Positions 7,998 to 28,914 of a stretch of DNA of 64,000 nt are shown one piece after another. Each line of letters opens with the position of its first letter. Within the stretch, counting starts at the first letter, position 1. The notes below the pieces were generated by a model that ran no database searches, had not been told where the DNA came from, and was given only the letters and a program-made list of their open reading frames with translations. This DNA comes from Rhodomicrobium sp. Lineage in GTDB: Bacteria > Pseudomonadota > Alphaproteobacteria > Rhizobiales > HXMU1428-3. A program made the position numbers and the translations under genes. The stretch lies in assembly GCA_021604665.1 (NCBI GenBank), contig BQJK01000001.1:1206419-1270418 (forward strand). The letters are read 5' to 3'.

Positions 7998-8819
7998 TTA
8001 GTCCACCGGCGACAAAATCTTATCGGCCACATCATCAGGCACCAGTAACTTCTCAACAGATTGCATCCATTCAAAGTTTTCCAGCAACCAGGTCGAAAAG
8101 CCATTGAGAGAAATCCAGCTATAAGACCAATCCAGCGTGGCATTGATAAACAGCAGCCCCACAATGATAAGCAGGATCCCGGAGATTTTCTCCATCGTGC
8201 CGAGATGACGTTGGAATTTTTGTATAAAATTCAAAAATGGCTGTATCAGCACTGCCGCCAGAACAAAGGGAATGCCAAGGCCAAGCGAATAAAACATCAG
8301 CATTGTTATGCCCCGGCTAACAGTGCTGGAATCCGCTGCAATCGACATAACAGGGGAAAGAATAGGCCCGATGCAGGGCGTCCAACCAAAAGCAAATGCC
8401 AGCCCCATAACAAAGGCGCCGACGATGCTCACATTTGTAGAGGATGTTTGAAACCGTGTGTCACGGTATAAAAGACCAATTCGAAACACGCCCAGAAAAT
8501 GCAGTCCAAAGATAAGGATCACAACACCTGCGATACGGGTCAGCACTAATTTATAACCAAGCAGCAGCTGCCCAAAGGCTGATGCTCCCGCCCCCAGCGC
8601 TACAAATATCGTGGTGAAACCCAGCACAAAAAATACAGCTGCCAGAATAATCCGCCCATGCACATGGGGCGGAAGCTTCTTTTCAGTGCCCGAAAGCTCA
8701 TCAAAAGTCACACCACCAAGATAACAGAGATAAGGCGGCACCAATGGCAGCACGCAGGGCGAGAGAAAACTCAACAGCCCTGCAAGCATAATAAAGAAAT
8801 AGAGCAACAGATCAGCCAA
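7998..8819 (-). CDS. ccdA: CcdA/SoxV-like membrane thiol-disulfide transporter
   Basis: A 273-aa inner-membrane protein of the CcdA/DsbD-beta family with six predicted TM helices. The two conserved Cys that carry electrons are in FLSPCVLPLVPPYL (C22) and FGWTPCIGPIL (about 150). CcdA passes reducing power from cytoplasmic thioredoxin to the periplasm, for cytochrome c maturation. SoxV, a CcdA homologue found in sox clusters, keeps SoxYZ reduced. The place directly after soxXA (58 bp) argues for a SoxV-like role or for haem attachment to SoxX and SoxA; no soxW thioredoxin is present here. The start is a TTG at 8819, supported by GGAG 6 nt upstream. Confidence 0.88.
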   Translation of the reverse strand: MADLLLYFFIMLAGLLSFLSPCVLPLVPPYLCYLGGVTFDELSGTEKKLPPHVHGRIILAAVFFVLGFTTIFVALGAGASAFGQLLLGYKLVLTRIAGVVILIFGLHFLGVFRIGLLYRDTRFQTSSTNVSIVGAFVMGLAFAFGWTPCIGPILSPVMSIAADSSTVSRGITMLMFYSLGLGIPFVLAAVLIQPFLNFIQKFQRHLGTMEKISGILLIIVGLLFINATLDWSYSWISLNGFSTWLLENFEWMQSVEKLLVPDDVADKILSPVD

Positions 8820-8877
8820 TGTGAACTCCAGTAAAAAATTTGAAATTTAAAGATTTAAGGTGTGAAACGGTATTTAA

Positions 8878-9708
8878 TCAGTTTCTAACCGCCGGCGTCT
8901 CAACTTCAAGGCCGCCGCCACGCCAATTTAGATAAAGCTCAAGATTGACATAATTCTCAGAGCCAAACGCATAAGGCTTCGCCCGCACTTGTTTATTACA
9001 ACCGCGGAAGCGGCGATGAAGTGAGCCAAGCCCCTGCCATTTCAACCGATATGTCGGGAAGCCATTAGCCTGCCCCTGGCTCAATTGATTAGAACGGATC
9101 ATTTTGCCATAATTGCCTTCATGGCAATGGCTGCAAGCCATATCTAACTGGCCGCGGCGCTGATAGTAAAACGCCTTTCCCTTTTCAAAAAACGGTTCTG
9201 CAGCCCCATCAACCTTCACCCGCACCGGCACCCCCTTGGATTGGTGCCTCACATATGCGGTTAATGCCAAAAGTTCACGAGATTCATATTCAAGCCGCTC
9301 AGCTTTCTGAAACTCAGAGCGACAGAGATTGATGCGCTGCTCAAGATTTATCAGCCGTTTCAGCGGCGGATAATAAACCGGATACCGTGCGCCAGCCTCT
9401 TTCATAGAAACAGCAACATTGCCATGGCAAGACGCACAAGATTTATCAGCCTTGCCAGCAGTCTTGTTAAAGAGCGCCTCACCCTCTTCGACATAAAGCA
9501 TTCCCGGATTCTCAAAATCATCCAGCTGCATGTCTTTCGTCTCTGTCTTGGCATAGTAAAAACCCGACCACAGATTAGAGAGCGGGTTATCCTTCACCAA
9601 GGGCGCAACAGACTTTGTCCGCCCATCACCAGCAACACCCGTGCGTGTGGAGATAAGCGCGCCAAGAAAAGCAATAACAACCAATGTGAGAAAAAGGGTG
9701 CGTTTCAA
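8878..9708 (-). CDS. soxA: Sulfur-oxidising c-type cytochrome SoxA (dihaem type)
   Basis: SoxA, catalytic subunit of SoxXA, which joins thiosulfate to the carrier cysteine of SoxY and passes the electrons to cytochromes in the periplasm. The 276-aa precursor has a signal anchor (residues 1-26) and two haem c sites, CASCH (91-95) and CSHCH (192-196). The GCNKQVRAKPYAFGS segment (active-site Cys 237) holds the haem-ligating cysteine persulfide in characterised SoxA proteins. Two haem motifs place it with the dihaem (Paracoccus-like) group. It follows soxX by 11 bp, a clear operon. The start is a TTG at 9708 with AGGAG about 8 nt upstream; no in-frame ATG fits the signal peptide. Confidence 0.95.
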   Translation of the reverse strand: MKRTLFLTLVVIAFLGALISTRTGVAGDGRTKSVAPLVKDNPLSNLWSGFYYAKTETKDMQLDDFENPGMLYVEEGEALFNKTAGKADKSCASCHGNVAVSMKEAGARYPVYYPPLKRLINLEQRINLCRSEFQKAERLEYESRELLALTAYVRHQSKGVPVRVKVDGAAEPFFEKGKAFYYQRRGQLDMACSHCHEGNYGKMIRSNQLSQGQANGFPTYRLKWQGLGSLHRRFRGCNKQVRAKPYAFGSENYVNLELYLNWRGGGLEVETPAVRN

Positions 9709-9719
9709 CCTACCGGCTC

Positions 9720-10346
9720 CTATTTCAATGTCAGCAGAAAACTGAGAACATCCTCAATATCCTGCGGCTCAAGAATGGGTTTCCCCTCATAGTCAGGCAA
9801 TACCCTGTGCAAGCCTTTAACCTTGTAGAAGGCTGGCATTATGGTATCCGGGAAAACTTCTTTTGCATCCACCAACAACAATCTCAGCTGGCCAGCGTCA
9901 TAGCGCTCCGCCACTGCATCAAGCGGTGGCCCCACCTCACCCATATCACCATATTTATTCGGCAAGGCTTTGGCCTTTTCATCAAACCGAGAGAGATGAT
10001 GACAGGCAAGGCAATTCCCCAGCTTGCGGTTAATCATCACCACTTCACCGCGTTTCGGGTTGCCCTTTTTGCCGGTTAAAGACTTAGGGATAGCTTTAGA
10101 ATGGATATTATCAATAATCTCAAATGAGACCAAAGAGCTCTCCGCTTCACGGCTCTTATCACCACTGTCAGCGGCATATAATAGTGACGCGAAAGTGAGC
10201 GGAGTGACCAAAACAGCCACACTAAAAAGCCCGGCAGGCAGCCAGGCAAAAGCCTTGCCACGTCCAGAAAAAGGCGTGCACACATGCCCTAAAAAGCGGC
10301 AGACCGCGCGCAAATTTAAAAATGAAGCTATCACTCTAATCACCAC
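9720..10346 (-). CDS. soxX: Sulfur-oxidising c-type cytochrome SoxX
   Basis: SoxX, the small monohaem subunit of SoxXA that receives electrons from SoxA. The only haem motif is CLACH (112-116). The N-terminal hydrophobic stretch (about 34-58, ending YAAD) is a signal peptide. The late MPAFYKVKGL segment supplies the likely axial Met, and EPQDIEDVLSFLLTLK is the usual cytochrome c C-terminal helix. At 208 aa it is longer than many SoxX, because of about 30 residues before the signal peptide. The start is uncertain: GTG codons at 10346, 10343 and 10334 are possible and none has a strong ribosome site. It is 226-230 bp downstream of cbbY on the same strand and 11 bp before soxA. Confidence 0.93.
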   Translation of the reverse strand: MVIRVIASFLNLRAVCRFLGHVCTPFSGRGKAFAWLPAGLFSVAVLVTPLTFASLLYAADSGDKSREAESSLVSFEIIDNIHSKAIPKSLTGKKGNPKRGEVVMINRKLGNCLACHHLSRFDEKAKALPNKYGDMGEVGPPLDAVAERYDAGQLRLLLVDAKEVFPDTIMPAFYKVKGLHRVLPDYEGKPILEPQDIEDVLSFLLTLK

Positions 10347-13246: not shown

Positions 13247-14227
13247 TTAATCTTCCTGTATCGGCATGCTATTCAAGATGCCATCAGCTGGATCACCATC
13301 TAACTTGCCATCAATAAATACCCGGCTCGCGCGGAAATCTTCTTCCGTCAAGGTGATCAGATCTTCTTTTTTCAAGGCTCTGTCCCGTGAGGCAAACAAA
13401 CGGTTCGCCTGGCGCAATCTCGCCCGGTCAAGCGCATTCCGTATAGAGCGCGCATTGGCAAAGTGAGTCATTTTCATACGCAGCGGGATATATTCGCTCA
13501 GCGCCTTGCGAGCGCTATCATCAAGCTGATAGCTCTGCTCTTTCAGCATCAAATCAGCAATCTGTTCAAGCTCACCAGCAGAGTAGTCAGGGAAATCAAG
13601 ATGGTGCGCAATCCGCGATCGCATGCCCGGGTTACTTTCAAAAAATTTATCCATCTTGTCTTTATAGCCGGCCAGAATAACAACCAGATCATCCCGGTGG
13701 TTTTCCATCACCTGCAACAAAATCTCTATAGACTCGCCGCCATAGTCGCGTTCATTTTCCGGCTTATAGAGATAATAAGCCTCATCAATAAACAGCACAC
13801 CGCCCATAGCCTTTTTAATAACAGCCTTTGTCTTAGGCGCAGTATGACCAATATATTGGCCAACAAGGTCATCCCGCGTCACAGAGACCAGATGCCCCTC
13901 CCGCACATAACCAAGCCGGTGGAGAATTTCAGCCATCCGCAAGGCAACAGTGGTTTTGCCGGTGCCCGGGTTACCGGTAAAATTCATATGAAGAGTTGGT
14001 GTCTCAGAAGTCAGGTTAAACCGACGGCGCAAACGATCAACAAGCAAGAGCGCAGCGATTTCTTTAATCCGTGTTTTAACAGGCACCAGGCCAACTAACT
14101 CACGGTCAAGTTTATCTAGCACTTCCTGCACCTGAGATCGCTCAAATTCGGCTTGAAGATCCACAGGGGCATCATCAGGCAACATTTCTAACTCTTGGTC
14201 ACTATCAGTGTTTTCTGTTTCGCTCAT
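13247..14227 (-). CDS. cbbX: Red-type RuBisCO activase CbbX
   Basis: An AAA+ ATPase that uses ATP to pull on the C-terminus of red-type RuBisCO large subunits and release inhibitory sugar phosphates. Walker A is [20 protein letters not shown], Walker [11 protein letters not shown], then sensor 1 in VILAGY and the arginine-finger region [17 protein letters not shown]. The frame stays open to 14314, but the ATG at 14227 ([10 protein letters not shown]...) is preferred. It has GGAAG 6 nt upstream and gives 326 aa, close to known CbbX, whereas the extra 29 codons translate a GC-rich hairpin (14282-14305) into Arg/Pro-rich nonsense. It follows cbbS, as usual for this RuBisCO class. Confidence 0.95.
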
Positions 14228-14281
14228 ATCTTCCACACAAAGGGGTTCATGTTTAAAAAGGGTCGAGACGTTAAGAGAGCT

Positions 14282-14305
14282 CGGTGGCGGCCGACACCGC
14301 CACCG
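14282..14305. promoter_or_regulatory. Intercistronic hairpin between cbbS and cbbX
   Basis: A 9-bp perfect stem, CGGTGGCGG (14282-14290) with CCGCCACCG (14297-14305), and a 6-nt loop. It lies 36 bp past the cbbS stop and 55 bp before the cbbX start. On the minus strand it is followed by mixed sequence, not a T-run. It is probably a 3' stability/processing element that keeps cbbLS mRNA more abundant than cbbX mRNA, or an attenuator. Confidence 0.6.
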
Positions 14306-14340
14306 AATAATCATCTGTTTTAAATAACCTTCAGCAGCAA

Positions 14341-14778
14341 TTAAGACCGCTCACCTTCAGGTTTGTCTGTCGCGTAAGGCTCAATCGTGTAGCCCATGCT
14401 GCGACCATCACGTTCCTGGCGGTGAAGCTTAAAGCCAGGCTCAGATGGCGGACGATTGACGATATAAGACATCCGAGGCGCTTCCCAACCATGCGTATTG
14501 TCAAACGCTGTGACGCGAATATACATATCTGGGAAGGTCTTCCGGCATTCATTGATTTCCATCAGGATGCCAGCAGGGTCTTTCAGATCAAACATCGGCT
14601 GACCATACATTTCCCAGTATGTGTTCCGGGGATGCGGATCGTCGGTATATTCGACATTCACCGCCCAGTCATTGTTGATCGCATATTTAAGTTGAGCAGT
14701 GATCTGCTCGTCGGTCAGGTCAGGGAGAAATGAAAACTGCCCCTGTGTCACCTTATTTCCGGGGTTTGTCATAGCCAT
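14341..14778 (-). CDS. cbbS: RuBisCO small subunit, red-type form I
   Basis: A 145-aa small subunit of L8S8 RuBisCO. It shows [15 protein letters not shown], the [20 protein letters not shown] segment and a C-terminal extension ([20 protein letters not shown]). That extension forms the beta-hairpin lining the central channel in red-type (form IC/ID) enzymes and is absent from green-type small subunits. It caps the large-subunit octamer and raises catalysis. It lies 20 bp after cbbL with AGGAG upstream of ATG 14778. A strong hairpin follows it. Confidence 0.96.
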
Positions 14779-14798: not shown

Positions 14799-16277
<1,479 letters not shown>

Positions 16278-16404: not shown

Positions 16405-17472
16405 TTAGGATGCCGTCACCGGGTCAAGTTCACCCGTTTCATAACGCTTGGCCATATCTGCCATCGGGATGACTTTGATTTTCGAGGCATGTCCGGATGT
16501 ACCGAAAGCCTCAAAACGGTCTTCACAAACTTTCTGCATCGCATCACGTGCAGGAAGCAGGAATTTACGAGGGTCAAACTGCGCTTTGTCTGTCATCGCA
16601 ACCTTTCTCATAGCGCCTGTGGCAGCCATTCTAAGGTCGGTATCGATGTTGACTTTGCGCACACCATGCTTGATGCCTTTAGCAATCTCTTCAACAGGCA
16701 CACCGTAAGTTTGCGGCATCTCGCCACCAAACTCATTGATGATATCCTGCAGATCCTGCGGCACAGAAGAAGAGCCATGCATAACAATATGCGTATTCGG
16801 TAGCCGTTTGTGGATCTCGGCAATCGTATCAATTGAAAGAATGTCGCCGGTCGGTGGGCGTGTGAATTTATAAGCACCGTGAGACGTACCAATGGCAACG
16901 GCAAGCGCGTCAACCTTGGTTTCCTTCACAAACTGCACAGCTTCATCAGGGTCAGTAAGCAGCATGTCTTTGCTCATCTCACCTTCAAAGCCATGGCCAT
17001 CTTCAGCTTCGCCCTTGCCGGTCTCAAGTGAGCCAAGGCAGCCAAGCTCGCCTTCAACAGAGGCGCCAACCATGTGAGCAAATTCAGCAACGCGGCGCGT
17101 GATGCCAGCGTTATAATCATAATCAGCTGGCGTTTTCGCATCAGCTTCCAAAGAGCCATCCATCATCACAGATGTGAAGCCATTTTGTATGGCAGAAAGG
17201 CAAGTCGCTTCATTGTTACCATGGTCCTGGTGCATACAAAGCGGCACATCAGGGTAGATTTTTTCCAAAGCCTCAATCATCGCAGCCAGCATCGTGTCAT
17301 GGGCATAACCGCGGGCACCGCGGCTGGCCTGAATAATCACCGGCGCATCACATTTTTGCGCGGCATCCATGATCGACTGACCCTGCTCCATATTATTGAT
17401 ATTAAAGGCCGGAACGCCAAAATCATGCTCGGCTGCGTAATCCAGCAACTGTCTAAGAGTAATTCTCGCCAT
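16405..17472 (-). CDS. cbbA: Class II fructose-1,6-bisphosphate aldolase
   Basis: A 355-aa zinc-dependent aldolase of the Calvin-cycle (CbbA/FbaA type B) subgroup. It joins dihydroxyacetone phosphate with glyceraldehyde-3-phosphate or erythrose-4-phosphate. Motifs: [15 protein letters not shown], the first zinc His in CMHQDHGNN (with catalytic Asp), [17 protein letters not shown] (Glu ligand), the His in [19 protein letters not shown] (third zinc His) and [11 protein letters not shown] for phosphate binding. Length and motifs match cbb-cluster enzymes such as those of Rhodobacter and Xanthobacter. It starts at ATG 17472 with AGGAG. It lies between pgk and cbbL. Confidence 0.96.
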
Positions 17473-17565: not shown

Positions 17566-18780
17566 TTAATTGCGTGTTAGTGCCACAACACCAGGCAAAG
17601 CACGACCTTCCAACCATTCAAGGAAAGCGCCTCCTGCAGTCGAAACATAAGTGAAATCTCCGGTAACACCAGCAGAATTCAAAGCAGAAACCGTGTCACC
17701 GCCACCAGCTATTGTTGCAAGCTGCCCTTCTCTCGTTCCACGCGCCGCTGCCCGGGCCAATGCAAAGGTGCCTTCCCCAAAGGGAGAGATCTCAAAAGCA
17801 CCAAGCGGACCATTCCAAACAAGGGTGTTACATTCAGAAAGTTTATCAACAAGCATGGCAACAGATTGTGGGCCAGCATCCAGGATCATCATGTCATCAG
17901 GCACCTGATTAACATCAACAACCTGGTTTTCAGCCCCTTCGGCAAATTCCCTGGAGACAACAACATCCACAGGCAAAACAATCCGGCAGCCCGTTTCTGC
18001 TGCCCGATCAAGAATAGAGCCAACAGTTTCAGTAAAGTCAGGTTCACAAAGTGATTTGCCTACCTTTACGCCTTGAGCATAAAGGAAAGTGTTGGCCATG
18101 CCACCGCCGACAATAATCATGTCAACTTTAGAGACAAGATTGGTCAACAGCTCAATCTTGGTGGAAACTTTCGCCCCGCCAACAACAGCTGCAACCGGCC
18201 GCTTAGGAGCTTCAAGCGCCGCTTTCAGCGCATTCACTTCCATCATCATCAAAGGTCCAGCATAAGAAGGCAGCTTCAAAGCCAGCCCTTCTGTTGAGGC
18301 ATGCGCTCTATGTGATGTTGAAAAAGCATCACTCACATAAATATCCCCAAGCTCGGCAAGAGCTGAAACAAATTCCGGGTCGTTATCAGTCTCGCCCTTG
18401 TGAAAGCGAAGATTTTCCAATACCAGCACATCACCATTATTCAGGGCATTGACGGCCGCTTTAGCACCATCACCAATGCAATCATCTACAAAGGCAACTG
18501 AAACACCATCAAGCAACTCACCAAGCCGGGCCGCCACTGGCGCCAGAGACATCTCCGGCACCCGTTGGCCTTTTGGCCGGCCAAAATGAGACATGACCAC
18601 AACTTTAGCCCCGCGAGACACAAGCTCTTTCACCGTTGGTAAAAACCGCTCAATCCGTGTTGCATCTGTAATAGCCCCGCCCTGGAACGGCACATTAAGA
18701 TCAGCGCGAACAAGAACACATTTGCCGGCCACATCCGCATCGCTGATCTCTTTTAGCGCGCTTAAATTCATATCAGTCAT
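17566..18780 (-). CDS. pgk: Phosphoglycerate kinase
   Basis: A 404-aa two-domain kinase that phosphorylates 3-phosphoglycerate, the RuBisCO product, with ATP. Motifs: VRADLNVPFQ (substrate Asp/Asn), VVMSHFGRPKG (substrate His/Arg), LENLRFHKGET, SDAFSTSHRAHAS, AVVGGAKVSTKIELL (hinge and nucleotide Lys), VWNGPLGAFE and IAGGGDTVSALNSAG (nucleotide loop). Full length. The start is ATG 18780 with GGGAGGAT upstream. It follows tkt by 22 bp, so the two are co-transcribed. Glyceraldehyde-3-phosphate dehydrogenase, often next to pgk, is not in the window. Confidence 0.97.
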   Translation of the reverse strand: MTDMNLSALKEISDADVAGKCVLVRADLNVPFQGGAITDATRIERFLPTVKELVSRGAKVVVMSHFGRPKGQRVPEMSLAPVAARLGELLDGVSVAFVDDCIGDGAKAAVNALNNGDVLVLENLRFHKGETDNDPEFVSALAELGDIYVSDAFSTSHRAHASTEGLALKLPSYAGPLMMMEVNALKAALEAPKRPVAAVVGGAKVSTKIELLTNLVSKVDMIIVGGGMANTFLYAQGVKVGKSLCEPDFTETVGSILDRAAETGCRIVLPVDVVVSREFAEGAENQVVDVNQVPDDMMILDAGPQSVAMLVDKLSECNTLVWNGPLGAFEISPFGEGTFALARAAARGTREGQLATIAGGGDTVSALNSAGVTGDFTYVSTAGGAFLEWLEGRALPGVVALTRN

Positions 18781-18802: not shown

Positions 18803-20818
18803 TTACGCATTGCCCGTTACACGGCGCGCCGCATCTGCCACATTTTCAGCCGTAATACCGAAATGCTCATAAAGTTCACCAGCCGGGCCAGAAGCACCAA
18901 AGCCAGCCATGCCAACAAACTGACCATTGCTGCCAAGCCATTTATTCCAGCCAAAATCAACAGCCGCTTCAACACCAATGCGCGGTGCATCTCCAAGCAC
19001 TTCCCACTGATAATCAGAGGATTGCTCTTCAAACAGCTCCCAGCATGGCAGTGAAACAACAGCAACCTTAAGGCCGTCAGCTTCAAGCAATTTGGCCGCT
19101 TCTATCGCAAGGGAAACCTCAGACCCGGTGCCAATCAGCGTTACATCACGCTCACCGCCCGGCTCCTTAATAATGTAGCCGCCTTTAGCGCATTTATTCT
19201 CAGCCGTGGCATCTGTCCGCATCAATGGCACACCCTGGCGGGTCAGCGTCATGATCGCCGGCGTTTTAGGGGCTGTGCAGGCAAGTTCCCAGCACTCAGC
19301 CACTTCAACACTATCCGCCGGGCGGAAAACATTAATATTAGGCATCGCCCGAAGAGACGCCAAATGCTCAACCGGCTGGTGCGTCGGCCCATCTTCACCA
19401 AGACCAATGGAATCATGGGTCATCACATAAATTACTGGAATTTCCATCAGGGCAGAAAGGCGAATGGCCCCCCGTGCATAATCAGAAAACACCAGAAACG
19501 TGCCGCTATAGGGTAAGAAGCCACCATGCAGATAAAGGCCGTTCATTACCGCGCCCATCGCATGCTCGCGCACACCATAGTGAACGTAATTGCCATCAAA
19601 CATGTCGCGGTTTATTTGTTTATATTGCTTGGTCTTCGTACCGTTAGACCCAGTCAGGTCAGCAGAACCGCCGATCATCCCAGGGATAGCAGGCAAAATC
19701 TCATCCAGCGCTTCCTTGGAAGAAACCCGCGTCGCAAGGCTTTTGCCGCCTTCTACAAATTTGCGTTTCGCTTCAATTACAGCCGCAGCAAGCGCTACTT
19801 TCACATCACCGCCAAGCGGTTTCACTAGCGTGTCCTGCATAGCTTGATCAAGACCAGACACCCGGCCCAACCAGGCTTTGTGAGTGTTAGCACCTTTTGA
19901 ACCAACAGAGCGCCATGCATCAAGCACATCTTGTGGCATTTCAAACGGGGCAGCATCCCAGCCAATAGCTTCCCGTGTCAGCGCGATTTCTTCATCACCA
20001 AGCGGAGCTCCATGGGTCGCAGATGTACCTTGCTTGTTTGGCGCACCAAAACCAATAATTGTCTTACAAGCAATCATCGTTGGTTTATCGCTGGCTTTTG
20101 CATCAGAGATCGCCGCAGAAATTGCCGACATATCATGTCCATCAACACGGATGGTGTTCCAGCCAGAAGCTTCAAAACGCTTAACCTGATCATCAGAGCA
20201 AGCCATATCCAGCGTGCCATCAATAGAGATGTTGTTATCATCCCACAGAACAATCAGCTTATTCAGGCGAAGATGACCAGCCAGAGAAATGGCTTCATGC
20301 GAAATGCCTTCCATCAGGCAACCATCACCGCAAATAACATAGGTGTAATGGTCAATCACATCACTGCCGAGTTTTTCAGCCTGCAACCGCTCACCCAGCG
20401 CCATACCAACAGCTGTTGTAATCCCCTGGCCAAGCGGGCCAGTTGTTGTTTCAATGCCCGGCGCATGCCCATATTCAGGGTGACCCGCAGTTGGGCTGCC
20501 AAGCTGGCGGAAATTTTTAAGGGTCTCCATCTCCATCCCCGGATAGCCGGTTAGGTATAAAAGCGAATAAACCAGCATCGAACCATGGCCCGCAGACATG
20601 ATAAAACGGTCTCTGTCATGCCATTCAGGGTCTGCAGCATCAAATTTCATATGGTCCGTAAAAAGAACCGTCGCCACATCAGCAAGGCCCATTGGGGCAC
20701 CTGGGTGGCCTGAATTAGCCTTCTGAACGGCATCCATAGATAACGCGCGAATTGCACTTGCCATCTTTTTCTTCATATTCATATCAATCTGTAGTTCGCT
20801 TGCTAGTGCTTCTCCCAT
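18803..20818 (-). CDS. cbbT: Transketolase
   Basis: A 671-aa thiamin-diphosphate enzyme that moves two-carbon units between sugar phosphates in Calvin-cycle regeneration. Motifs: ANSGHPGAPMGLADVA (N-terminal His), GHGSMLVYSLL, GPLGQGITTAVGMA, the ThDP/Mg site YVICGDGCLMEGISHEA...LIVLWDDNNISIDG, and in the Pyr domain GVREHAMGAVMNG (catalytic Glu), DSIGLGEDGPTHQPVEHL and GTGSEVSLA. Full length. Start at ATG 20818 with AAGGAG about 10 nt upstream; a later ATG at 20776 is less likely. It is 93 bp after prk and 22 bp before pgk. Confidence 0.96.
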   Translation of the reverse strand: MGEALASELQIDMNMKKKMASAIRALSMDAVQKANSGHPGAPMGLADVATVLFTDHMKFDAADPEWHDRDRFIMSAGHGSMLVYSLLYLTGYPGMEMETLKNFRQLGSPTAGHPEYGHAPGIETTTGPLGQGITTAVGMALGERLQAEKLGSDVIDHYTYVICGDGCLMEGISHEAISLAGHLRLNKLIVLWDDNNISIDGTLDMACSDDQVKRFEASGWNTIRVDGHDMSAISAAISDAKASDKPTMIACKTIIGFGAPNKQGTSATHGAPLGDEEIALTREAIGWDAAPFEMPQDVLDAWRSVGSKGANTHKAWLGRVSGLDQAMQDTLVKPLGGDVKVALAAAVIEAKRKFVEGGKSLATRVSSKEALDEILPAIPGMIGGSADLTGSNGTKTKQYKQINRDMFDGNYVHYGVREHAMGAVMNGLYLHGGFLPYSGTFLVFSDYARGAIRLSALMEIPVIYVMTHDSIGLGEDGPTHQPVEHLASLRAMPNINVFRPADSVEVAECWELACTAPKTPAIMTLTRQGVPLMRTDATAENKCAKGGYIIKEPGGERDVTLIGTGSEVSLAIEAAKLLEADGLKVAVVSLPCWELFEEQSSDYQWEVLGDAPRIGVEAAVDFGWNKWLGSNGQFVGMAGFGASGPAGELYEHFGITAENVADAARRVTGNA

Positions 20819-20910: not shown

Positions 20911-21831
20911 TTAGATGGCGTGAACCCCAAGTCCGGCTTTAACCATGTGGTAAGCAACCAGCAATTGCGTCAATGCTAACGGGTGACTCATAGCAGTCGC
21001 CCCATCAACCTGGCCAAGCTGCGAGCGCAGGTGGCTGGCCTCAGGGATCAGATCCCATAGCAGATTTTGGATTTTTCCAGCATGTTCATCAGTGATACCG
21101 CCATCAATTTCAAGCACATCAACAGGCTTGCCATCAACATCGCGGGCCAATTCAAGATGCAAGCCATTATTGCTGGCAGACTCGAATAGTGGTGAAAAGT
21201 CAGGATGCGGCAAGGTTGGGCGCAGAATATGGCGCACATCAAGATGCGCATCATCACCACCCGTCTCAGGCTTTTGAAAACGAATAACAATATCAGCAAA
21301 GGTCCGCTGCGGCTGAATAAACGCCGGGCTATCTGCTTTGCGCTTCTCAAGTGAAGCCATAACCTGCTCTTCAGTATAACCGCGCTTTGTGGTGTCGCGG
21401 TGAACCTTCCATTTCACCCGGAGATCTTCTTCAGGATCAAGATAGATCTTCACATCATAGCAATTACGCATTTCACGTGTTGTGTAGCCTAACAGCCCTT
21501 CCATGATCACAAAATCACGAGGCTTTACATACTCTGGCCGGTCAAGTGTGCCACTATTATGATTATAGATCGGCTTCAGAATAGCCTCACCCCGGCGCAG
21601 CGCCTCAAGGTGCTGCTGAAGAATGTCAATATAGTTACCACGTGGGTCAAGTGCGGAAATACCATTTCCAGAGCGCTCAACACGGTCATAAGCGTGATAA
21701 TCGTCGGTACAAATCACAGTACAGCGATCTTCACCCAAAATTTTTGCAACACCTTTTGAAAGTGTCGTCTTACCTGTCGCGGAGTCCCCAACGACGCCCA
21801 AGATAATGGGACGATCAATGATCTTTGGCAT
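20911..21831 (-). CDS. cbbP: Phosphoribulokinase, proteobacterial form I
   Basis: Makes ribulose-1,5-bisphosphate, the RuBisCO substrate, from ribulose-5-phosphate and ATP. Walker A is GVVGDSATGKTTLSKGV. Other features are TDDYHAYDR (catalytic Asp region), LDPRGNYIDIL, KPIYNHNSGTLDRPEY, FVIMEGLLGYTT (Walker B Glu) and a segment with VKWKVHRDTTKRGYT. The ~305-aa octameric proteobacterial type is allosterically controlled by NADH, unlike the longer plant/cyanobacterial enzyme. The ATG at 21831 is chosen; the frame also has a TTG 9 bp upstream, but GAGAG precedes the ATG at proper distance. It lies between the FBPase gene and tkt. Confidence 0.96.
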   Translation of the reverse strand: MPKIIDRPIILGVVGDSATGKTTLSKGVAKILGEDRCTVICTDDYHAYDRVERSGNGISALDPRGNYIDILQQHLEALRRGEAILKPIYNHNSGTLDRPEYVKPRDFVIMEGLLGYTTREMRNCYDVKIYLDPEEDLRVKWKVHRDTTKRGYTEEQVMASLEKRKADSPAFIQPQRTFADIVIRFQKPETGGDDAHLDVRHILRPTLPHPDFSPLFESASNNGLHLELARDVDGKPVDVLEIDGGITDEHAGKIQNLLWDLIPEASHLRSQLGQVDGATAMSHPLALTQLLVAYHMVKAGLGVHAI

Positions 21832-22001
21832 TTCTCTCAAATCCCCAGTTCAGGGAAGCCTGCTAATCTGCTTCCGGTTTGTTTCTTTTCCCCCTCTCAA
21901 ATGAGGGCCCCTCTCTAGCGGAGGGTTGTGCTTTTCTTGAAAATTCTGGCAATGGGCCATCATTTCAGGCTCGCCCGGCCAGTAACGGCCAGGAAATCTC
22001 G

Positions 22002-22964
22002 TTATTCCTGCGTGTAAGTGGTCAGAACCTGCCGCTCAGATGTGGAGCCGGTTACCATCAATGTTTGCAGCTTAAAACCTTGCCGTGTCCGCTCGACACC
22101 CTCCAGCATCAACCCGGTTGTGATACCGGTTGCACAGAAATAAAGGTCGTCAGATTTAACCAGCTCATCAACCTTGTACCAACGGCTGGTATCCAGGCCT
22201 GCGGCTTTAACAGCCAGCGCTTCAGTTTGTAGTTGCGGGTCAAGCCGGGCTAAAAATTCACCGCCCAGCGCGCGGATCGCAACAGCAGACATAATCCCTT
22301 CAGGCGTACCGCCGGTGCCCATCAGCGCATCAACGCCGCTATCGGGAATGGCCGCGAGCAATGCGCCCGCCACATCGCCAGCCGGGTACAATAGCACCCG
22401 CGCACCAGCATCATGAATATCCTGCACTAATTTTCTGTGCCGCGGCTTCTCAAGCACATAAACGGCAACTTCAGACACATCCTTTTTCAGGATGTCAGCC
22501 AGTGTTTCAATCTTCTTTTTTGTCGTCCAGTTGGGGTCAATCTTGCCGCGCGCTTCAGGGGGAGCCGCAAATTTCTCCATATAAAAAGCCGGTCCCGGGT
22601 CCATCATCGTGCCGCGCGGCGCAATCGCAATCACAGCTAATGCGTTGGTTTGCCCCTTCGCCAGATAGCTGGTGCCCTCAACAGGATCGACAGCAATATC
22701 AGCTTTAAAAGCGGCACCTGGCTGGCCAACAATTTCACCATTGAAAAGCTGCGGGGCTTCATCTTTTTCCCCTTCACCAATGACAACAAGACCTTCAAGC
22801 TCAATCTCTTGCAGAGCACTGCGCATCGCATCAACAGCCGCGCCATCACCGCGCTCTTTATCGCCCCTGCCAATCCAGACATAGGCAGCCCGCGCCGCGT
22901 CTTCAGTTACTTTCCTCAGCCCATAGATAAGTTCGGGCTTAACGCCGCCAGCGCTGGTCATCAT
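22002..22964 (-). CDS. glpX: Class II fructose-1,6-bisphosphatase (GlpX type)
   Basis: A 320-aa lithium-sensitive-fold phosphatase of the GlpX family. Motifs: GRGDKERGDGAAVDAMR, VVIGEGEKDEAPQLFNGE (metal-binding), DIAVDPVEGTSYLAKGQ, GDVAGALLAAIPDSGVDALMGTGGTPEG and TGITTGLMLEGV. It removes the 1-phosphate from fructose-1,6-bisphosphate; cyanobacterial GlpX homologues also act on sedoheptulose-1,7-bisphosphate. As the only FBPase in this cbb block it may do both jobs. Most proteobacterial cbb operons instead carry class I cbbF. It is the first enzyme gene of the block, 422 bp after the regulator. Start at ATG 22964 with GGGGAG. Confidence 0.95.
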   Translation of the reverse strand: MMTSAGGVKPELIYGLRKVTEDAARAAYVWIGRGDKERGDGAAVDAMRSALQEIELEGLVVIGEGEKDEAPQLFNGEIVGQPGAAFKADIAVDPVEGTSYLAKGQTNALAVIAIAPRGTMMDPGPAFYMEKFAAPPEARGKIDPNWTTKKKIETLADILKKDVSEVAVYVLEKPRHRKLVQDIHDAGARVLLYPAGDVAGALLAAIPDSGVDALMGTGGTPEGIMSAVAIRALGGEFLARLDPQLQTEALAVKAAGLDTSRWYKVDELVKSDDLYFCATGITTGLMLEGVERTRQGFKLQTLMVTGSTSERQVLTTYTQE

Positions 22965-23080
22965 CGCGAATATCTCCCCAAGCGGTTAACCGCCTTATTG
23001 TTGCGGCATTACCGCCGAATTGGGTCAAAGGTAGGAGGTTTCAAAGCCGGCAGAAACATGCCAAGAGGTGGGGAGGGCCC

Positions 23081-23201
23081 ACCCATAAGGGTAGGTTTTG
23101 AGGGTAAAATGTGATAATTTCTTGGTCAAATCAATGCTGCACTGCAAAAAATACAAGCATTCGTTAATTTTCAGGCAAAAACCTTTACCCTTAGTACCAA
23201 C
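23081..23201. promoter_or_regulatory. Candidate promoter/operator of the cbb block: heptamer-like TACCCTY sites
   Basis: In the 422-bp gap between the regulator and glpX, TACCCTT-like heptamers recur. On the minus strand they are at 23087-23093 and 23100-23106 (centres 13 bp apart); on the plus strand TACCCTT is at 23186-23192 and a weaker TACCAAC at 23195-23201. NarL/FixJ-family proteins with a LuxR-type HTH often bind such 7-bp sites (the NarL consensus is TACYYMT), and the neighbouring gene encodes one. A minus-strand -35-like TTGACC (23124-23129) lies 17 bp from the 23101-23106 site, which would then overlap the -10. This is inference from sequence alone. Confidence 0.4.
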
Positions 23202-23386
23202 CCCTCACACATCCACTTGACGCCCGAAAAACCGCCATATTCAGCAAAAAATCCAGCGGAGCTTTCCAAATAAAAGACATGACTGCACTCGCGATAAGGG
23301 GGGCCTTATAACGGGGTAAGGTCAGCTATCAAAAACCATGATTTAAGGGGAGTGGAGGAAGAAAGGTAAAAACAGACCAGCCCAGA

Positions 23387-24022
23387 TCAGGAGGCCATAT
23401 TCCCCTCATTGAAATAGAGCGCCACGGCCTCAGCCCGGTTGCGTACATTCAATTTGGAGTAGATATTTCTCAAATGAAATTTCACCGTATTCGGTGACAC
23501 TTTCAGCGCGGCCGCAAGCTCCTGATTGGTCATCCCCAAACAAAGCTTTTCCAGCATTAAAGCTTCTTTTTGTGTAAGCTGCTTTAAGACGCTCACTTCA
23601 AGTCGCTTGCTCATAAACGGAAACACCATTGAGCCCCGCGCCACACTATCAAGAACATTCAACAATCGCTCAGGCGGTTCCGTTTTTGAGAAAAAGGCAT
23701 AAGCCCCAAGCTCCATCGCCTCACGGGGCACCATCTCATCAACATGCCCTGTATAGACAACAACCTTAGGGCTATCAGTACGAGTGGCCAGCGCTTCCAA
23801 AAGCTCACGCCCATTGCAATAGGGCATCAACCACCCTGTAATCACAATATCAAGAGAGAGCATGGAAAGCCCATCCAGCAACCGCGCCCCATCATGAGCT
23901 GAGGCCACCAGATCAAACCGGCCATCCTCATCAAACAAAGACCGAAGCCCCCTGACGACCAGCTGGTTTTTATCAACCACGCCAACCCGCACGGGATAAT
24001 GAATTTTCTGCGCTATTACCAA
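23387..24022 (-). CDS. NarL/LuxR-family regulator with degenerate receiver domain
   Basis: A 211-aa protein with a receiver-like domain (about 12-125) and a C-terminal LuxR-type HTH (about 149-200: LTQKEALMLEKLCLGMTNQE..., SPNTVKFHLRNIYSKL). The receiver keeps the Thr (VVVYTGH, T91) and Lys (AFFSKTEPP, K113), but the phosphoacceptor position reads DIVITGWLMP, with Gly63 (codon GGG) where Asp is expected. The second acidic residue near the N-terminus is Lys (VVDK). It therefore probably cannot be phosphorylated normally. It is encoded at the head of the cbb block in the same direction and is the best local candidate for its regulator, as no cbbR is present. The start is a TTG at 24022 with AAGGA upstream, somewhat uncertain. 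Confidence 0.88.
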   Translation of the reverse strand: MVIAQKIHYPVRVGVVDKNQLVVRGLRSLFDEDGRFDLVASAHDGARLLDGLSMLSLDIVITGWLMPYCNGRELLEALATRTDSPKVVVYTGHVDEMVPREAMELGAYAFFSKTEPPERLLNVLDSVARGSMVFPFMSKRLEVSVLKQLTQKEALMLEKLCLGMTNQELAAALKVSPNTVKFHLRNIYSKLNVRNRAEAVALYFNEGNMAS

Positions 24023-24448: not shown

Positions 24449-25003
24449 TTACTTCTGACAAGCATAGGCCTGCGCGATACACTGATATTGCCAGGAATTT
24501 TTACGGCGACAGTCAAATGAGCTTTTATCAGCGTTGTCCCATTCGGCCCATTCTTCACCAAATAGCTCAATCACCTTAACTTTCCAGCCTGCCCGCGCCT
24601 GCGCTTTCGCCGCAACAATTGTCCCCCGCCGGGCGCCATAAGCGCTGGTCGCTGTCTCCTTGCAGCGCTCGGCAGCCGGCGTCACAATCACCTTGGCAGG
24701 GCATGGGCGCGCACTGCGCGTGCATTCCCATTTTCCTTTATTTTCACCGCTCATCAGATCAACACAAACAAGCTTACGCTCCGTCGCCTTCGACCAGTTT
24801 TGAAACTCAGTGCCAAACTTTTCCCGCGCCACAGCTTTCCAGGTGAAAAAAGCATTCGCCCGCGCCAACTCACCAATAGAAGATGGCTTACCAGTTGCGC
24901 TCACCGTTTCGCTTTTGCAGCCATCCTCAGCTGCCATCGCCGCAGTACTAACCGCCACGCCTCCTAGCAAAACAACCAGGATAGCTAAAACCATTCCCCT
25001 CAT
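24449..25003 (-). CDS. Secreted Cys/Trp protein with an internal duplication, unknown function
   Basis: A 184-aa precursor with a signal peptide (residues 1-24, ending AMAAED). The mature part contains two copies of one module. Copy 1 (about 45-105) reads W-x7-FGTEFQNWSKA...C-x13-C-x6-C. Copy 2 (about 130-183) reads W-x7-FGEEWAEWDNA...C-x9-C-x6-C. Each module thus has a fixed Trp/Phe-Gly core and three Cys suited to disulfides. A single diverged module is encoded nearby at 28615-28914. I recognise no named domain. A periplasmic or extracellular role is likely. Strong ribosome site GGAGGGAG before ATG 25003, own terminator downstream. Confidence 0.75.
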   Translation of the reverse strand: MRGMVLAILVVLLGGVAVSTAAMAAEDGCKSETVSATGKPSSIGELARANAFFTWKAVAREKFGTEFQNWSKATERKLVCVDLMSGENKGKWECTRSARPCPAKVIVTPAAERCKETATSAYGARRGTIVAAKAQARAGWKVKVIELFGEEWAEWDNADKSSFDCRRKNSWQYQCIAQAYACQK

Positions 25004-28614: not shown

Positions 28615-28914
28615 CTATTTCTGACAGAAGGTCGCCCAGCTAATGCAGGTATATGAGCCACCATCAGCACTGCATTTGTAGCGCTCTTTCTTGACAGTAT
28701 AGCCAGAGACTTCCCCAGTTGCGACCCAGCCTGGCCATAAACCCCAGCTAACCGCTTGCACCATAGTCTCCATAGCAAACCATTTAGCAGAAGATTCTGA
28801 ACCGGATGTAGCCTGAGCAGATTTTTTAACGCAGGCGGCAGAGGCCGCACCACTCATTGAAAAGGCAAGAGCCACAGCAAAAACGCCGCCAGCAACTTTT
28901 GAGCGAATAGACAT
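28615..28914 (-). CDS. Secreted single-module Cys/Trp protein, unknown function
   Basis: A 99-aa precursor with a clear signal peptide (VFAVALAFSMSGAASAA, cleavage near residue 26). The mature part has W-rich core residues (AKWFAMETM, SWGLWPGWVATG) and a Cys tail KC-x8-C-x6-C ending in CQK. This matches the Cys tails of the two modules in the protein at 24449-25003 (C-x9/13-C-x6-C, same ending CQK), so it looks like a diverged single-module relative. An overlapping frame (28554-28853) lacks a signal peptide and ribosome site. The excellent AAGGAG before ATG 28914 supports a real gene. Confidence 0.75.
   Translation of the reverse strand: MSIRSKVAGGVFAVALAFSMSGAASAACVKKSAQATSGSESSAKWFAMETMVQAVSWGLWPGWVATGEVSGYTVKKERYKCSADGGSYTCISWATFCQK

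Follow-up and report, generated by a model that had tools for sequence, protein, structure and literature searches.

Gene organization of the locus

The window analysed here (64,000 nucleotides of the Rhodomicrobium genome G000, which is 2.9 Mb in size and 98.2% complete; positions without a locus label refer to this stretch) carries on its minus strand a gene for a NarL-type regulator that lacks the phospho-acceptor Asp (23387..24022; 211 amino acids, TTG start and TGA stop). Downstream of this gene, and likewise on the minus strand, follows the operon cbbF-cbbP-cbbT-pgk-cbbA-cbbL-cbbS-cbbX; the two are separated by a gap of 422 bp (22965..23386), the presumed cbb promoter region. The first gene of the operon, cbbF (22002..22964), encodes a GlpX-type class II fructose bisphosphatase and is followed by cbbP (20911..21840, phosphoribulokinase), cbbT (18803..20818, transketolase), pgk (17566..18780, phosphoglycerate kinase), cbbA (16405..17472, class II aldolase), cbbL (14799..16259, RuBisCO large subunit), cbbS (14341..14778, RuBisCO small subunit) and cbbX (13247..14314), all on the minus strand. 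CbbL shares 85% identity with large subunits annotated as form I; cbbT, pgk, cbbA, cbbS and cbbX were named by sequence and context, and the order of the first three of these is the same in relatives.

On its other side the regulator is flanked by a gene for a 184-residue protein without a Pfam match and then by a gene read as leuA; a histidine kinase gene was not present among the neighbours of the regulator at this locus. The 184-residue protein (24449-25003) contains Cys and has a signal-like N-terminus, and its position next to the regulator is the same in each of the seven other copies of the genus (51-55% identity); a 99-residue protein encoded at 28615-28914, likewise without a Pfam match, resembles it by eye. 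Genes beyond the cbb operon (7998-10346) hint at the oxidation of sulfur compounds as an energy source: one for a membrane protein resembling CcdA by eye, one for a SoxA/TsdA-type cytochrome and one for another cytochrome c.

Six other genomes of the genus contain the regulator, in seven copies that are 75-80% identical to that of the window and that each directly precede cbbF. In G001, the only genome of the genus without a copy, cbbP begins at base 1046 of its contig and the expected position of the gene is thus cut off by the contig end. Genome G007 has two cbb clusters (L043 and L044), both of which come with a regulator copy and an operator-like site of their own, and the RuBisCO large subunit of one of them is only 56% identical to that of the window.

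The regulator and its receiver domain

Pfam assigned residues 14-124 of the regulator to Response_reg (64.2 bits, above the cut-off of 30.2) and residues 148-201 to the GerE helix-turn-helix (65.4 bits, above its cut-off), the combination that defines NarL/FixJ-type transcription regulators and that sets the protein apart from the LysR-type CbbR. Sigma70_r4_2 was matched as well, below its cut-off, NCBIfam equivalog cut-offs were missed by far (best 89.7 versus 343 bits), and a weak match of the helix-turn-helix to CARF3 models of PADLOC was judged irrelevant. The position of the phospho-acceptor, aligned with the Asp of DVVVTD in ChrA (4yn8), is occupied by Gly63 (GGG), next to Trp64 (TGG), and the second acidic residue is replaced by Lys18 (AAA); the first acidic site, Asp17 (GAT), is retained, as are Thr91 (ACA) and Lys113 (AAA) at the switch positions. 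The original prediction had read Gly63, Lys18 and the preserved Thr and Lys directly from the sequence, a reading borne out by the codons and by the ChrA alignment. The protein thus departs from the canonical two-component pocket (D17 and K113 are retained, K18 and G63 take the place of acids) and classifies as an Aspartate-less receiver (ALR), having a Response_reg match with Asp absent at the phospho-acceptor.

An isolated mutation or a sequencing error at Gly63 was ruled out, as the residue is identical in all seven other copies of the genus; DKN and GW occupy the pocket positions in each of them (L038-L044). The dN relative to these copies was 0.15-0.19, with values of 0.175-0.186 in the four of seven pairs that had a dS of 1.6-2.6 (dS was not computable in the other three), a pattern that suggests purifying selection on the gene.

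A regulator family linked to two C1-assimilation routes

A family profile built from 22 members separated the family clearly from other regulators at the level of the class, where eight of 289 genomes (that of the window included) scored at least 247.9 bits and the next match 129.4 bits; at the level of the order, 56 of 397 genomes carry the family (E up to 1e-45). We read 68 gene neighbourhoods: the window, 19 from the first relatives, four plasmid records (five matches were opened out of 1162 records), seven more of the class and 37 of the order. L135 and L136 (128.6-129.4 bits) lie outside the score gap of the family and were left out, and the fragments L055 and L056 were left out of the tree, as were their gap cells out of the residue counts.

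Seventeen of the 68 copies adjoin cbbF, cbbP, cbbT or cbbL (for L129, counted among these, the stretch read reveals no more than transketolase, aldolase and rpe) and 44 lie with mtkA, mtkB or mcl of the serine cycle. Another five were classed as likely serine, on the basis of ftfL and folD (L067), glyA (L160 and L161), glyA at a distance of 8 kb (L157) or an aminotransferase that is 27% identical to sgaA (L132). The remaining two were found elsewhere, L047 on a contig with a pyrophosphate-PFK gene and L134 directly before a glyceraldehyde-3-phosphate dehydrogenase gene, both of these genes being identified by eye.

In the tree the family forms a single branch (support 100/99 against nine outgroup rows), in which the window copy falls together with a copy from Paracoccus aminovorans and outside the other NarL-type regulators. 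The branch comprises two serine-cycle groups and one Calvin group, with two exceptions: L134 branches first and L157 pairs with the Calvin-linked L131. The window copy itself is linked to cbb genes and not to the serine cycle, and the best mtkA match of its genome is sucC-like (434.7 bits versus at least 515 for mtkA). The window gene represents the Calvin-cycle branch within a family of C1-assimilation regulators that share a candidate operator. The original prediction had pictured an Asp-less regulator beside a cbb operon as an unusual control system; the receiver without a phosphorylation site stands, but the protein is no lone oddity of a single cbb operon, the family being mostly serine-cycle-linked, so that the earlier interpretation largely holds but understates the breadth of the phenomenon.

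The link with the two routes is also apparent from gene content. All 56 family-positive genomes of the order encode mtkA (malate-CoA ligase, 44 genomes) or cbbP of this type (13 genomes, one of them having both), genes that are present in 110 of the 397 genomes (Fisher p about 1e-37, uncorrected for relatedness; the mtkA cut-off of 515 bits was set by us at a score gap and the cbbP cut-off was E up to 1e-80). The family is missing in 48 of 92 mtkA genomes and in 17 of 30 cbbP genomes and is therefore required for neither pathway. G001 aside, the 16 genomes with this cbbP but without the regulator are all members of family f32; serine-cycle mtkA occurs as well in 11 of the 16, and some other regulator must act there. 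The presence of the regulator family at serine-cycle genes as well implies that one type of regulator may govern two assimilation routes, both of which are targets of C1 biotechnology.

Conservation of the altered pocket

Across the family, position 63 is Gly in 51 of 67 copies, Asp in 14 and Ser in two, and the adjacent Trp64 is invariant (67/67). None of 66 copies has an acidic residue at position 18 (Lys 34, Arg 13, Pro 7, Gln 5, Ser 4, Gly 3). The Calvin-linked copies (n=17) are more uniform, with 16 Gly, one Ser and no Asp at position 63, 16 Lys and one Arg at position 18, and 16 Lys and one Asn at position 113. The Gly on which the original prediction was built is thus conserved among cbb-linked homologues, and the objection it had raised against itself, that homologues in the same position might carry Asp, therefore does not apply.

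Asp63 does occur in some serine-cycle copies, probably including ScyR (discussed below). All 14 copies with Asp63 are serine-cycle-linked, with Arg at position 113 in 13 of them and Pro, Ser or Gly in place of the second acidic residue where readable (13/14). Thirteen fall in the tree group of the P. aminovorans copy, the 14th being the fragment L055, which is not in the tree. This group joins the Calvin group with weak support (84/70), for which reason Asp63 may be a return there. As no copy was read with a full acidic pocket, ordinary phosphotransfer seems unlikely anywhere in the family. Loss of the site, its conservation and the linkage can all be seen by sequence, as can the conserved palindrome and the failure to find a CbbR that are described below. 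The receiver domain is probably no longer a phosphorylation switch.

Two readings of such a pseudo-receiver were considered. It may be a regulator locked in the active state, in which Lys18 mimics the metal and positive charge of that state, DNA binding is constant and only the amount of protein is regulated. In line with this, position 18 is Lys or Arg in 47 of 66 copies and in all 17 Calvin-linked ones, the equivalent D13K exchange gives a constitutively active CheY (excerpt of PMC4671073), and RitR, the ALR archetype, likewise has a Lys at the second acidic site (excerpt of PMC4395418). However, D13K in EpsW was not constitutively active (same excerpt of PMC4671073), position 18 is occupied by Pro, Ser or Gly in copies of the ScyR type, and the retention of Thr or Ser at position 91 (56 of 68 copies) and of Phe or Tyr at position 110 (66 of 68) suggests a domain that can still move. 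We therefore hold a permanently active regulator to be possible but somewhat doubtful.

Alternatively, the altered pocket may sense an intermediate shared by the Calvin and serine routes, or else bind a partner protein. That one family is linked to two C1 routes and that Trp64 is invariant beside the lost Asp would fit such a role, as would the precedent of CbbR, itself a metabolite-sensing protein. On the other hand, any ligand is a candidate only, and the pocket model, a structure prediction from a two-sequence alignment, was too poor (mean pLDDT 54) and was set aside. Because the receiver domain and its switch residues have been kept, we place sensing slightly ahead of a locked state and regard it as quite possible, if short of an even chance.

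A candidate operator upstream of cbbF

Alignment of the regulator-cbbF gap of the eight copies of the genus revealed one well-conserved block in an otherwise poorly conserved region. The block consists of three 7-bp half-sites, CCTACCC / GGGTAGG / CCTACC, which alternate in direction at 11-bp steps (23089-23095, 23078-23084 and 23067-23073) and are followed by a GGCATG-like block. The first two form an 18-bp palindromic candidate operator, CCCACCCATAAGGGTAGG (23078..23095; consensus CCYACCC-N4-GGGTRGG), about 113 bp before the start codon of cbbF. The third (23067..23073), which reads CCCCACC on the minus strand of the window and lies 11 bp from the near half-site of the palindrome, was aligned as CCTACC/CCCACC in all eight copies. 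A sigma-70 scan gave no site inside the gap (22965-23386), and a sigma-54 promoter in the GGCATG-like block was dropped, as the spacing, judged by eye, does not fit.

With at most one mismatch the palindrome has a single match in the window genome and one match each in G002-G006, in every case before cbbF, and a reversed control pattern has none in these six genomes. In G007 it was found at both cbb clusters and once more inside an ORF, and in G001 it was not found. Among the 68 loci, 21 have the palindrome (at most one mismatch) within 600 bp of the regulator (11 of the 17 Calvin-linked and 10 of the 44 serine-linked loci), compared with 0.2 loci on average and a maximum of three for base-shuffled flanks (50 rounds), and only two matches occur in the remaining 1.05 Mb of these loci. 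The palindrome also turns up next to some members of the regulator family from other taxonomic families and orders; in the other 47 loci it is not near the gene.

A weight matrix built from 19 sites of family loci gave a significant site (p < 0.05) next to the gene in 40 of the 68 loci, and in 45 of 68 the site next to the gene was the best of the locus. Since the matrix derives from the same loci (the site of L046 not being near its gene), 18 of the 40 significant loci pass by construction; 22 of the 49 loci that contributed no site were significant at p < 0.05, several of them close kin of contributors. A looser pattern, CCYACC-N6-GGTRGG, was found 27 times in whole loci versus 30 times in base-shuffled loci and hence showed no excess. 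The palindrome was not found in six of 30 genomes searched, and in several GC-rich genomes the control pattern equalled or outnumbered the real one (8 versus 1 in G361, 10 versus 3 in G403 and 11 versus 4 in G103). What suggests an operator is therefore the position of the sites, not their count.

Several sites lie at related genes away from the regulator. In G050, for instance, a second cbbF-cbbP cluster located 250 kb from the regulator is preceded, at about 200 bp, by a zero-mismatch site. G052 has a site that does not share a contig with the regulator, in the interval separating cbbP from a second phosphoribulokinase-type gene; L046 has a site in the same setting, with weaker ones in L048 and L137. 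In G021 a site precedes cbb genes further down the cluster, not adjoining the regulator. Most other extra sites inspected fall within ORFs or lack a neighbour of this kind. In G486, whose regulator is serine-cycle-linked, a one-mismatch site was found about 160 bp upstream of the gene for methylene-tetrahydromethanopterin dehydrogenase (L237, 3603-4679), where it overlaps the end of the preceding gene. A wider regulon is possible there, but with three sites versus two control matches in this genome the site may be due to chance.

The palindrome might instead act in the RNA, as an attenuator or terminator hairpin in a transcript running from the regulator into cbb, and the minus strand can indeed fold a 7-bp hairpin at this position. 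Such a hairpin would have no U run behind it, though, and the terminator scan, whose total was at chance level, does not list the palindrome; it does list a terminator-like site at the end of the regulator gene (23397-23378, minus strand). The half-sites, moreover, follow each other at 11-bp steps, and in L064, L066, L138, L144, L147 and L154 the palindrome precedes the aligned regulator start by 22-60 bp and does not fall between the regulator and the operon. We consider an RNA hairpin very improbable and retain the reading as a candidate operator.

Other candidate regulators of the cbb operon

Accounts of how proteobacteria control CO2 fixation usually centre on CbbR and, for some species, on RegAB. 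The original prediction had claimed the absence of CbbR from the window alone, a claim that can now be extended to the whole genome. We used as queries a LysR-type protein encoded divergently from a cbb operon of Phyllobacterium and its Nitrobacter counterpart, two cbb-linked proteins from different families that match each other at 218 bits and 40% identity (tblastn). The window genome has six LysR-type genes, and CbbR was not found among its proteins (best match to the Phyllobacterium query 52.5 bits, 31% identity) nor by local tblastn (best 67.8 bits with the Phyllobacterium query and 74.7 bits, 27% identity, with the Nitrobacter query). A CbbR elsewhere in the genome was therefore rejected, as the search and the listing of LysR genes gave none at CbbR level. 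Within the genus, G007 reached 105 bits (29%), G002-G006 reached 42.7-52.7 bits and G001 gave no match. LysR-type matches of 184-241 bits were obtained in G021, G052, G355 and G103 among the 20 genomes searched, so that both regulators may coexist in these species. In L230 (3643-5780) a second cbbF-cbbP cluster has a zero-mismatch candidate operator upstream and a LysR-type gene running divergently from it, and double control of this cluster is possible.

A gene of the RegA/ActR/PrrA family is present on a different contig of the window genome (G000:C4:184773-185288; 306.7 bits, cut-off 250 bits), and the cbb operon may therefore have a second control. RegA controls cbb in Rhodobacter, and the redox system RegA/RegB or another regulator could be the main control here as well, with the window protein as an accessory. 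We find this unlikely, as it is the window regulator that adjoins the operon, with RegA encoded on another contig, and as the one well-conserved block of the gap holds a palindrome that is also found beside other copies of the family. The NarL-type regulator may stand in for CbbR in this genome.

Proposed role of the regulator

It is probable, in our view, that the protein is a phosphorylation-independent regulator of C1-assimilation genes, which in the window would be the cbb operon, acting via the candidate operator. A dimer would bind CCYACCC-N4-GGGTRGG with its GerE domains (and in this genus the third half-site as well), and the bound regulator would control the genes from cbbF to cbbX, as CbbR does elsewhere. 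With the phospho-acceptor lost and the second metal-binding acid replaced, the input is not expected to be Asp phosphorylation by a histidine kinase; it could be a ligand or a partner protein at the altered pocket, or there could be no input, the protein being always on and controlled by its amount. Related copies would do likewise for serine-cycle genes. Activation seems more likely than repression, by analogy with ScyR, which according to Czarnecki et al. (2017) reportedly induces serine-cycle genes on C1 compounds.

A more far-reaching scheme would take this family of regulators without a kinase and an ancestral operator as a shared module of both main alphaproteobacterial C1 routes, moved between the serine and Calvin cycles, with a pocket that senses a common intermediate and with CbbR wholly replaced in the window genome. 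We put this forward tentatively, the scheme as a whole being conceivable more than probable.

Comparison with known systems

The two-domain architecture of the window protein is that of NarL, NarP, VraR, FixJ and ChrA; in canonical NarL/FixJ members the acidic pocket is complete and a kinase is the partner. Replacement of the phospho-Asp is shared with the ALRs RitR, ChxR, HP1043 and FrzS (excerpt of PMC4395418). RitR also has Lys for the second acid and retains the pocket Lys, but its DNA-binding domain is of the OmpR type (same excerpt), in contrast to the GerE domain found here. According to the same source, Gly accounts for 11% of Asp-less receivers, and as of 2015 this type was without a characterised representative; a link between ALRs and carbon fixation was not seen in the excerpted text.

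The closest known relative is probably ScyR. The name scyR, 'serine cycle regulator', appears in the legend of a serine-cycle figure in an excerpt of PMC8235418, which also cites the methylotrophy island of P. aminovorans on pAMV1. An 18.6-kb stretch of this 185-kb plasmid has one annotated regulator (JCM7685_RS16080), between sga-mtkAB-hpr-ppc-glyA and mcl, and since this regulator belongs to the family it is most likely ScyR. It is 37% identical to the window protein over 198 amino acids and lies inside the 100/99 branch, and the best palindrome match of the 18.6-kb locus, with two mismatches, is 62 bp upstream of its gene. Unlike the window protein, which has Gly63, Lys18 and Lys113 and adjoins a cbb operon, it has Asp at the phospho-site, Ser at the second acid and Arg for Lys113, and it serves the serine cycle. 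In the literature searched, scyR, as a name (PMC8235418, in excerpt), was the only trace of this control system, a weak negative given that most subscription papers lay outside the search; the excerpts of PMC4543880, PMC12403871 and PMC6209633 contained nothing on this family, the LuxR passage of PMC4543880 concerning DmfR.

With CbbR, finally, the window regulator would share its job, the control of a cbb operon from an adjacent gene, but the two belong to different protein families. A complete cbb operon, in a genome where CbbR was not found, under a phosphorylation-dead NarL-type regulator with a candidate operator would represent a separate solution to the control of CO2 fixation.
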